Part shown: positions 16,479 to 32,757 of the stretch, one piece after another
How positions within the stretch are numbered: position 1 is the first letter of the stretch
How the letters are laid out: every line of letters begins with the position of its first letter
DNA from: Psychrobacillus vulpis
Lineage (GTDB): Bacteria; Bacillota; Bacilli; Bacillales_A; Planococcaceae
Length of the DNA: 32,757 nucleotides
Direction of reading: 5' to 3'
Assembly (NCBI RefSeq): GCF_006861825.1
Contig: NZ_VDGI01000021.1
Location: forward strand, 1 to 32,757
Program-made: the position numbers and the translations under genes
The notes under the pieces: model-generated
Told to the model about the DNA's origin: nothing
The model's input: the letters and a program-made list of their open reading frames with translations, nothing else
Database searches by the model: none

Positions 16479-16754
16479 AAGGGCACTGAAAAAGTGTTAT
16501 TCTAATAAATTCCATTAAATAGTCGTTAAGAGAGTTTATCGCTTTGGCATTCGCTTTCCGCGGGCGAGCAACGAGCCTCCTCCTTCGCTCCGCTTCGTGC
16601 GGGGTCTCGTCTGTCTCGCGAAGACCCCGGAGCGAAGCGAGGAGGCTGAGCTACGCCCGTGGAAAGGGAGCCGTTTCAACGATTTTCTTTTTCTTGGAGT
16701 TTCGCACAACCTCATCTGGTAGCGTCGAATAATAGGGACTTTTTCAATGCCCTC
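16479..16754. mobile_element. MITE-like element, chimeric (type D left half, type F right half)
   Basis: A 276-bp element with ends AAGGGCACTGAAAAAGT and ACTTTTTCAATGCCCTC. Its left 90 bp match the left arm of the type-D element at 31738, and its right arm matches the type-F elements at 32387-32607. They join inside the GC-rich core near 16620, where a B-type half-core ending CGTCTGTCTCGC meets an A-type half-core starting GAAGACCCCGGAGCG. The flanks show no matching 8-bp duplication (AGCATGGT versus ACGCGTAG), as expected for a recombinant. Open frames here on both strands are GC-rich repeat artefacts. It fills the gap between the patB terminator and the next gene's terminator. Confidence 0.75.
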
Positions 16755-21209: not shown

Positions 21210-21382
21210 ATACAAAAAGTTGTAAGCAATATATATCAAGACCTATTTTGGATAATAGGAAAAACTAAAAAGTGAGGGATCCTCAACAATCCACACTCTA
21301 CTTTTTTAGTTCAAGAAAATCGTTGAAAAAGGCGACACTCCTGCTGGAAAAGCATTAGTCGAAGACCCCACAGCGAAGCGAG

Positions 21383-21622
21383 GAGGCCACTGAAAAACTC
21401 AAAATTATTATTTTTATAGGAACTATTTGCTGTATATCATTCAAAGAATTTAGCGCGACGCATGAGACTCCTGCGGGAAAGCGAGACAGACGAGACCCCG
21501 CACGAAGCGAAGCGTAGGAGGAGGCTCGTCGCTCGCCCGCGGAAAGCGAATGCCAAAGCGCTAAATTCTCTTAGGACTATTTGATAGATAATTTATATGA
21601 ATGACACTTTTTCAGTGCCCTC
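21383..21622. mobile_element. type-D MITE-like element, copy 1
   Basis: 240 bp with ends GAGGCCACTGAAAAA and TTTTTCAGTGCCCTC. It is flanked by GAAGCGAG (21375-21382) and AAAGCGAG (21623-21630), a 7/8 direct repeat consistent with an 8-bp target duplication. It carries a 123-bp B-type GC-rich module (21446-21568) bounded by GAATTTAGCGC/GCGCTAAATTC. No coding capacity for a transposase. Confidence 0.8.
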
Positions 21623-21657
21623 AAAGCGAGGAGGCTGAGGCAACGCCCGCGGAAAGG

Positions 21658-21817
21658 GAGGCCACTGAATAACCAAAATTCAGAAAATAAAGTCACCACT
21701 TGAGAAGTATATTTGTATCAAAATTGGCATGACGTCCCCATAAACACCCTAAAAAGTGAAGGAATTATGGGATATCGTTTTTATTTTTTGAAAAAAAGTG
21801 ACTTTTTCAGTGACCTC
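21658..21817. mobile_element. type-E MITE-like element, copy 1
   Basis: 160 bp, A/T-rich, with ends GAGGCCACTGAAT and GACTTTTTCAGTGACCTC. It is flanked by perfect 8-bp direct repeats CGGAAAGG (21650-21657 and 21818-21825). It lacks a GC-rich module. It interrupts the 3' box of the A module. Confidence 0.8.
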
Positions 21818-22001
21818 CGGAAAGGGAGCCGTTTCAACGATTTTATTATTAACTGGGTTATTGGACACCCCCCTCTAGCAAAGTCAGATTATAAGGACCT
21901 TTTTAGTGCCCTCATCCACACTCTACTTTTCTAGAAAATCGTTGAAAATGGCGACACTCCTGCTGGAAAAGCATTAGTAGAAGACCCCACAGCGAAGCGA
22001 G

Positions 22002-22241
22002 GAGGCCACTGAAAAACTCAAAATTATTATTTTTATAGGAACTATTTGCTGTATATCATTCAAAGAATTTAGCGCGACGCATGAGACTCCTGCGGGAAAG
22101 CGAGACACACGAGACCCCGCACGAAGCGAAGCGTAGGAGGAGGCTCGTCGCTCGCCCGCGGAAAGCGAATGCCAAAGCGCTAAATTCTCTTAGGACTATT
22201 TGATAGATATTTTATATGAATGACACTTTTTCAGTGCCCTC
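22002..22241. mobile_element. type-D MITE-like element, copy 2
   Basis: 240 bp, flanked by GAAGCGAG (21994-22001) and AAAGCGAG (22242-22249), exactly as in copy 1. It contains the second B-type module with GAATTTAGCGC/GCGCTAAATTC ends. Confidence 0.8.
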
Positions 22242-22276
22242 AAAGCGAGGAGTCTGAGGCAACGCCCGCGGAAAGG

Positions 22277-22436
22277 GAGGCCACTGAAAAACAAAAATTC
22301 AGAAAATAAAGTCACCACTTGAGAAGTATATTTGTATCAAAATTGGCATGACGTCCCCATAAACACCCTAAAAAGTGAAGGAATTATGGGATTTCGTTTT
22401 TATTTTTTGAAAAAAAGTGACTTTTTCAGTGGCCCG
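22277..22436. mobile_element. type-E MITE-like element, copy 2
   Basis: 160 bp, flanked by CGGAAAGG on both sides (22269-22276 and 22437-22444). The right terminus reads TTTTTCAGTGGCCCG instead of GTGACCTC, so it has changed since duplication. Confidence 0.78.
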
Positions 22437-22511
22437 CGGAAAGGGAGCCGTTTCAACGATTTTCTTATCGAAAAGTGAGAGGTAAGCTTGGAAAACCTTA
22501 TCTATCCCTAT

Positions 22512-31684: not shown

Positions 31685-32040
31685 GGAAAAAGCCACTCGC
31701 TTTCCGCGGACGAATCGCGAAGACTCCTCGCAACGCTGCGGTCACTGAAAAGGTGTCATTCAAATAAATTATCCATCAAATTAGTCCTAAGAGAATTTAG
31801 CGCTTTGGCATTCGCTTTCCGCGGGCGAGCGACGAGTCTCCTCCTACGCTTCGCTACGTGCGGGGTCTCGTCTGTCTCGCATTCCCGCAGGAGTCTCATG
31901 CGTCGCGCTAAATTCTTTTAAATGGAATACAGAAAATAGTTCCTATAAAAATAATAATTTTAATTTTTTCAGTGGCCTCGCGACGCTCGTGCGGTGTCTT
32001 GAACGCTCCGTTTTTCCGCAGGAGTCTCGCAGCTTTTTCC
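31685..32040. repeat. C-type GC-rich module split by a type-D element
   Basis: It starts GGAAAAAGCCACTCGCTTTCC and ends GAGTCTCGCAGCTTTTTCC, an inverted-repeat frame. It is interrupted by the element at 31738-31979. Removing 242+8 bp from 356 leaves 106 bp, matching the intact 108-bp copy at 32153-32260. No gene is supported here. Confidence 0.8.
31738..31979. mobile_element. type-D MITE-like element, inverted relative to 21383-21622
   Basis: 242 bp with ends GCGGTCACTGAAAAG and TTTTTTCAGTGGCCTC. It is flanked by GCAACGCT (31730-31737) and GCGACGCT (31980-31987), 7/8 identical, consistent with an 8-bp target duplication. It contains a 123-bp B module (31793-31915) with GAATTTAGCGC/GCGCTAAATTC ends, the reverse complement of those in the pbpD-yufK cluster. 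Confidence 0.8.
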
Positions 32041-32275: not shown

Positions 32276-32378
32276 AGGCAACGTCCGCGGAAAGGGAGCC
32301 ATTTCAACTCTTATTTATTGGAATATTGAACACCCTATCTGGTAAAGCAGAATTATAGTATCTTTTTCAGTTCCCTCC
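32276..32378 (+). repeat. right-half fragment of a type-F element (A module)
   Basis: It starts GGCAACGTCCGCGGAAAGGG and continues through CATTTCAAC, ATTGGAATATTGAACACCC and TCTTTTTCAGTTCCCTC. This matches the right half of 32387-32607. The left half is missing, replaced by C-module flank, so the junction is a recombination scar. Confidence 0.7.
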
Positions 32379-32386
32379 CTACGCTT

Positions 32387-32607
32387 GAAGCACTGAAAAG
32401 CTGTCATTTATTTTAAGAAAAATACTAGAAAATCGTTGAAAAAGGCGACACTCCTGCGGGAATAGCGTTAGTCGAAGACCCCACAGCGCAGCGAGGAGGC
32501 TGAGGCAACGCCCGCGGAAAGGGAGCCATTTCAACGATTTTCTTTTTATTGGAATATTGAACACCCTATCTGGTAAAGCAGAACTATAGTAACTTTTTCA
32601 GTTCCCC
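32387..32607 (+). mobile_element. type-F MITE-like element with intact A module
   Basis: 221 bp with ends GAAGCACTGAAAAG and AACTTTTTCAGTTCCCC. It carries an uninterrupted 115-bp A module (32428-32542) framed by GAAAATCGTTGAAA/TTTCAACGATTTTC. It is flanked by CTACGCTT on both sides (32379-32386 and 32608-32615). The 229-bp period to the next copy equals the element plus one 8-bp flank. Confidence 0.8.
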
Positions 32608-32615
32608 CTACGCTT

Positions 32616-32757
32616 GAAGCACTGAAAAGCTGTCATTTATTTTAAGAAAAATACTAGAAAATCGTTGAAAAAGGCGACACTCCTGCGGGAATAGCGTTAG
32701 TCGAAGACCCCACAGCGCAGCGAGGAGGCTGAGGCAACGCCCGCGGAAAGGGAGGCC
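32616..32757 (+). mobile_element. type-F MITE-like element, truncated by the window end
   Basis: A near-identical second copy of 32387-32528, starting GAAGCACTGAAAAGCTGTC and running into the A module until the last base. How many further copies follow cannot be seen. Confidence 0.78.

Follow-up and report, generated by a model that had tools for sequence, protein, structure and literature searches.

Two short elements that interrupt a GC-rich hairpin repeat in Psychrobacillus vulpis, here called D and E, are in all likelihood non-autonomous MITEs of the IS1182 family that are moved in trans and nest in hairpin repeats, many of them cores of the family's own older elements. The window, i.e. 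the whole stretch of DNA analysed, comprises 32,757 nucleotides (contig NZ_VDGI01000021.1). The ends of the elements, their target duplications, the choice of site, a candidate autonomous partner and the nesting can be read directly from the sequence. An earlier note on this DNA had drawn attention to the two elements. It missed that the host module is itself apparently the core of an older element (F), that E occupies an invariant site in the copies examined and that, most likely, the pair has been duplicated in tandem.

The first copy of the GC-rich hairpin module (21315-21845, forward strand, as are all features below unless indicated) is split by both elements and appears to be the core of an old F. 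D (21383-21622, 240 bp) is bounded by the terminal inverted repeats (TIRs) GAGGCCACTGAAAAA and TTTTTCAGTGCCCTC and carries a GC-rich core of its own. Its left target duplication is GAAGCGAG (21375-21382), a site also used by other D copies, and its right one is AAAGCGAG (21623-21630), which shows one mismatch and becomes exact with a one-base shift of the boundary. E (21658-21817, 160 bp) lies between two copies of CGGAAAGG (21650-21657 and 21818-21825). Removal of each element with one 8-bp flank, as put forward in the earlier note, leaves 115 bp, exactly the length of the module at 32428-32542, to which it is identical at 109/115 positions. This second module, previously taken as an intact host and used here as the empty site for joined-module comparisons, is indeed uninterrupted but sits within a decayed older TIR-bounded unit, F. 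A right TIR of F, CTTTTTAGTGCCCTC, is found at 21899-21913 and is similar to the right ends seen in further copies of F. The description of D and E as MITE-like, with common ends and without a transposase, is borne out as well: no stop-to-stop stretch exceeds 62 aa in D or 38 aa in E. Folding of the intact module gave z values of -5.0 as DNA and -5.4 as RNA; in these folds the D site is the apical loop and the E site lies at the edge of a stem and an internal loop. Rfam searches of the window returned nothing at gathering score, and those of seven module-holding loci returned only five matches to microRNA families, at 28-33 bits, under gathering scores of 68-135.

A second module with D (22002-22241, 99.2% identical to copy 1) and E (22277-22436, with an altered right end and 97.5% identical to copy 1 over 22277-22434) occupies positions 21934-22464. 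Its excision also yields 115 bp, identical to 32428-32542 at 107/115 positions. The two pairs are 619 bp apart, align at 523/536 positions and leave joined modules that are alike at 111/115 positions. In both, the flank to the right of D has A in place of G, which among the 40 D copies examined (see below) recurs only in L033. Rather than by two sets of insertions, they are most simply explained by one tandem duplication of 619 bp, of which the second module would be the second unit. A third D copy is located on the reverse strand (31738-31979, 93.75% identical to D) with 8-bp flanks AGCGTCGC and AGCGTTGC. Remnants occur elsewhere in the window. At 16480-16681 a truncated D (positions 99-239) adjoins part of a core of the module type (A-type), as in a decayed or recombined array. 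At 32377-32757 decayed F elements form tandem units of about 229 bp, and a further E seems to start at the window end (L248).

With up to one mismatch allowed, the genome contains 353 occurrences of the ends GAGGSCACTGAAAAA (176 and 177 by strand), against a single one of a reversed control pattern. The best-scoring matches to D and E were read with their flanks, giving 40 full-length D and 43 E copies, so that the genome holds at least 40 D and at least 43 E. Duplications were counted with an end shift of up to two bases allowed, as exact for E and with up to one mismatch for D. The earlier note had drawn the element boundaries at the CACTGAAAAA ends; an 8-bp duplication abuts those ends in all 43 E copies examined, exactly in each case, and in 28 of the 40 D copies (21 exact). 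Every one of the 43 E copies occupies a single module position (CGGAAAGG or a variant), with 19 copies facing one way and 24 the other. The duplicated sites of D are this same position and the module's apical loop (GAAGCGAG, AGCGTAGC, AGCCTGCG and others); L161, among the 28, apparently lies outside a module. By eye, most of the 12 D copies that lack a duplication seem to be recombinants or decayed.

A single module position for all E copies examined could also be the outcome of one E insertion, followed by the spread of the composite of module and E through mobility of the module, gene conversion or recombination; the D-E pair of the window has itself probably been copied by tandem duplication. 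Such a history is very unlikely. E is common in both orientations, and host variants private to one locus appear in both copies of the target duplication: CTTTGCCG in L041, TCTTTCCG in L178 and TGGAAAGG in L184 for E, and TGGAAAGG in L023 for D. Moreover, when the sequences on either side of E are joined, a module of 75-110 nt is restored for 29 of the 43 copies, and among these 29 the host modules diverge by 8.5% pairwise against 0.67% for E, a figure biased low in part by selection because the E copies are the best-scoring 40 matches. The private variants on both sides and the two orientations together indicate that E entered this one position many times independently, in a repeat that was dispersed beforehand.

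Taken regardless of whether they belong to D or E, 22 TIR matches in 400 kb have module-like 60-nt flanks in 12 cases, compared with 40/2000 random 60-mers; the other 10 have no such flank, and look like chance matches in some cases and not in others. At least two insertions lie apparently outside modules, the D of L161 and an F in L183.

The earlier note had suggested looking for a full-length IS with the same ends. A transposase-bearing IS with the same 15-bp ends is present in several copies in this genome. A profile search with DDE_Tnp_1_6, the sole transposase family model run genome-wide, gave three matches, of which two exceed the cut-off and are located at contig ends and the third is weak. 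The protein of L057 scores 367 bits against the NCBIfam model NF033551 (cut-off 270) and is thus an IS1182 transposase, which names the family that the note could not; the sequence signs of insertion that it reported stand. The truncated copy in L058 scores 168 bits, under the same cut-off. The draft assembly of the genome spans no copy of the IS from one end to the other: the TIRs that bound the transposase gene are seen here on separate copies, the left end GAGGCCACTGAAAAAGTCC in L057 and the right end GAGGACACTGAAAAACC in L058, and on one and the same copy in relatives. The ends of the IS are of the GAGGSCACTGAAAAAGTCC type. In D as in E, one end resembles the left end of the IS (..AAAAAGTS) and the other its right end (..AAAAACY).

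The IS also shares the insertion site of E. Of 152 contig ends, 40 were tested; an IS end lies within 230 bp in nine, and all nine adjoin the module at CGGAAAGG/CCTTTCCG. Seven further IS ends occur at the E site of modules (L057, L058, L180 at the end of C3, two in L031 and two in L160), the four from L031 and L160 belonging to deleted derivatives, which brings the total to 16 of the 16 IS ends seen. In L031, a piece of 515 bp (332-846) between a left and a right IS end is probably an internally deleted IS; the modules that flank it are in opposite orientation.

D and E combine small size (240 and 160 bp), lack of coding capacity, TIRs and target duplication with a partner that has the same ends, and are very probably MITEs moved by the IS1182-type IS of their own genome. 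D, E and F are inferred to be mobilised by this transposase. It is very improbable that the elements belong to another family whose ends are alike by coincidence. One transposase model was searched genome-wide and other transposases with like ends may exist, but the genome's IS1182 element shares both the 15-bp ends and the insertion site of E, and its relatives produce duplications of 8-9 bp.

From the sequence around them, many modules appear to form the core of F, an older element bounded by TIRs of the kind seen in D, E and the IS. Thirteen A-type modules were examined: eight have a proper end (up to three mismatches) at a distance of some 50-60 bp on one or, in a single case, both sides, and five have none. 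A search for complete F elements (ends with up to four mismatches) returned mostly D or mixed pairs. The F copies in L186 and L183 have an exact 8-bp duplication, AAGCAGAG within a D-type core and AAGAAAAA away from any module, respectively; in L035 and L030 the duplication of F has one mismatch. The GC-rich core is present in D itself, and insertion of D into D is seen in L031 and at C13:17853-18093, where halves of another D flank the insert. The leader of the IS in L057 also carries the core. Because of the duplications around F copies, the hosting of D by a D core and the core in the IS leader, the three elements F, D and IS resemble layers of a single family that inserts into its own repeats. 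With many modules as F cores, the family lands inside its own kind.

The transposase was followed in named genomes. The scan gave 80 loci, of which 56 were kept and 24 left out, in most cases for want of a usable end (cut off, masked or missing); L115 is among the latter, with both ends readable and no duplication. The ends of several relatives were placed by hand at their GAGG start. A duplication of 8-9 bp is present in 52/56 (none in L066, L068, L124 and L136). In 34/52 the duplication is flanked by a stem with a score of at least 5, whereas such a stem is found at 1.2% among 3767 random positions and 6% among 200 re-paired flanks; the other 18 include four module targets and, by eye, terminators with bulges or offsets. 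In 48/52 targets there is an A or T tract, against a background of 30%. After exclusion of the four module targets (L082, L090, L091 and L093), 96 half-sites from 48 sites define a pattern with A at -12 to -9 and CC at -3 and -2 on both sides of an 8-9-bp gap. In a leave-one-out analysis, 46/48 sites rank in the top 1% of background positions, the background being the window's own genome rather than that of each host. Most targets of the IS relatives in other Bacillota are thus read as loops of putative intrinsic terminators, with the loop duplicated. The resulting terminator-type matrix was tried as an account of the module sites and set aside for its poor fit, the E site falling in the top 7% and the apical D site in the top 13% of positions.

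Module motifs are found in the leaders of 11 of the 13 named IS whose leader exceeds 240 bp and in none of the 43 with a shorter one. In the leaders of L075, L078, L079, L085, L092, L114, L129-L132 and L139 a GC-rich module lies between the left end and the transposase gene, and some of these also carry a separate terminator-like hairpin. A link between a module-bearing leader and module targets was considered and dropped: the named IS with such a leader are mostly inserted in terminators.

Within the genus both kinds of target occur. In G013, IS copies are found in the apical loop of a module (L274), in a terminator (L276) and at an ambiguous site (L273); two others (L272 and L275) have reciprocally exchanged 8-bp flanks (AACGAAGC and CTTGGTAC), pointing to recombination or inversion between the two copies. 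In G011 the IS occupies a terminator-like site (L277) and another place (L278), and in G010 a terminator (L279). The last corresponds to the same IS insertion as L067 (L279 is in G010:C14; L067 is in NZ_VDGG01000002.1, Psychrobacillus soli NHI-2).

The feature of the module that is recognised may be its hairpin form or its dyad symmetry, as the terminator targets of the relatives would suggest. It has a substantial chance, though one short of even, of being primary sequence instead, i.e. the 8-mer and its flanks. A single 8-mer with few variants is found at all E copies and IS ends seen, and the module sites have no outstanding dyad signal: in a dyad and loop scan at six settings, the E site was matched or beaten by 14-41 and the D site by 8-80 of 129-145 positions, the site itself being counted. 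However, of the 25 occurrences of CGGAAAGG in 432,757 bases, 20 are within modules and five outside (5/25), and yet none of the 43 E copies lies at a site of the latter kind. In addition, D uses several different 8-mers, and the IS relatives use terminator loops of varied loop sequence.

The distribution of the components differs. E was found in 2/31 genomes, that of the window and G011, the latter with three copies at 82-83% identity and one match of 31 bases; by eye, the E-like copies of G011 lie in a GC-rich module at a different point, with flanks alike at 7/8 positions. The module is present in 18/19 genomes of the genus, the window's own included, and relatives of the transposase in 12/19, near full-length in G000, G010, G011 and G013. 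These counts suggest that the burst of E is so far confined to the lineage of the window and that the repeat is more widespread and presumably older. At the orthologous locus of 15 relatives, no D, E or full A-type module was found, the PBP gene being reachable in 11. Other module-like pieces do occur at these loci: a D-core-like sequence in L197 of G016 (75% over 84 bp), short matches in L202 and L193 and, by eye, a GC-rich module in L201. In G003, L280-L288 contain many modules with apical-loop inserts of about 70 or 104 bp that look palindromic, are partly nested and lack GAGGSCACTGAAAAA ends.

The following mechanism would account for the arrays. The IS1182 transposase, of DDE type by family, would recognise the GAGGSCACTGAAAAA ends of D and E in trans and insert the elements by 8-bp staggered cuts. 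The target would be the GC-rich hairpin repeat, entered by E and the IS at CGGAAAGG in either orientation and by D at the same position or in the apical loop. Many copies of this repeat would be the core of an older F, and D would supply the core too; the family would therefore provide its own landing sites and build nested arrays. A further step, to which we give just under an even chance, is that these landing sites are safe ones: F and D, mobile in the way of the IS, would spread the hairpin core through the genome, the IS and E would insert almost exclusively there, and the lineage would have switched from the terminators of its host to its own repeats. The ancestral habit, insertion at the dyad axis of intrinsic terminators with duplication of the loop, would be retained in relatives.

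The system offers a natural case of a seemingly DDE transposase with targeting close to a single position (43/43 MITE copies examined and 16/16 IS ends seen). Together with relatives that use terminator loops and have a definable palindromic pattern, it makes the reading of palindromes by sequence or by structure directly testable. It also illustrates how a genome can accumulate nested non-coding arrays.

Some IS1182 members have been reported to target palindromes (Siguier et al., as stated in PMC5678879). The IS described here resembles the family in a transposase above the family cut-off and in its terminal inverted repeats; in the relatives studied the loop is duplicated over 8-9 bp and the stem kept, whereas the target here is a dispersed GC-rich repeat. 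IS1272 and TnSha1, IS1182-family elements of staphylococci, use hairpin targets that include transcription terminators (PMC4923244, PMC5678879). According to the same sources, IS1272 removes the stem-loop partly or wholly without duplication, in contrast to the target described here, which is kept and duplicated; stem-loop loss without duplication was not found for D, E or the IS relatives. Duplication of the loop corresponds to pathway c of the model in PMC5678879, where it is put as a possibility. The discussion of PMC12056078 states that IS1182-related transposases act with or without target duplication, and by either the sequence or the structure of the target. In a search without ISfinder, TnPedia and most subscription papers, we recognised no paper on this repeat or on observed loop duplication by an IS1182 member.

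MITEs of the family have a precedent in ISMac2 of Methanosarcina acetivorans, with forms of 160 and 169 bp in 14 and 7 copies (PMC3852290). Their duplications are 4 and 0 bp and the account of them in that paper describes no repeat-specific site, whereas E, also of 160 bp, has an 8-bp duplication. Insertion at one point of a dispersed palindromic repeat, as in all 43 E copies examined and the 16 IS ends seen, is known for REP-targeting ISs (IS1397, IS621, ISPsy8, ISRm22 and others; PMC1525189). ISRm22 inserts on the axis of palindromy, and imperfect duplications in some of its copies are put down to recombination (PMC1525189). These ISs belong to the IS3, IS110, IS4, IS256 and IS5 families, in contrast to the IS1182 partner found here, and, as presented in PMC1525189, the REP repeats that they enter are not said to be cores of the family that inserts there, unlike the module. 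Since each part has a precedent in the cited work, IS1182 MITEs and repeat-targeting ISs being already known, their combination in Psychrobacillus vulpis is a new variation on a known theme.
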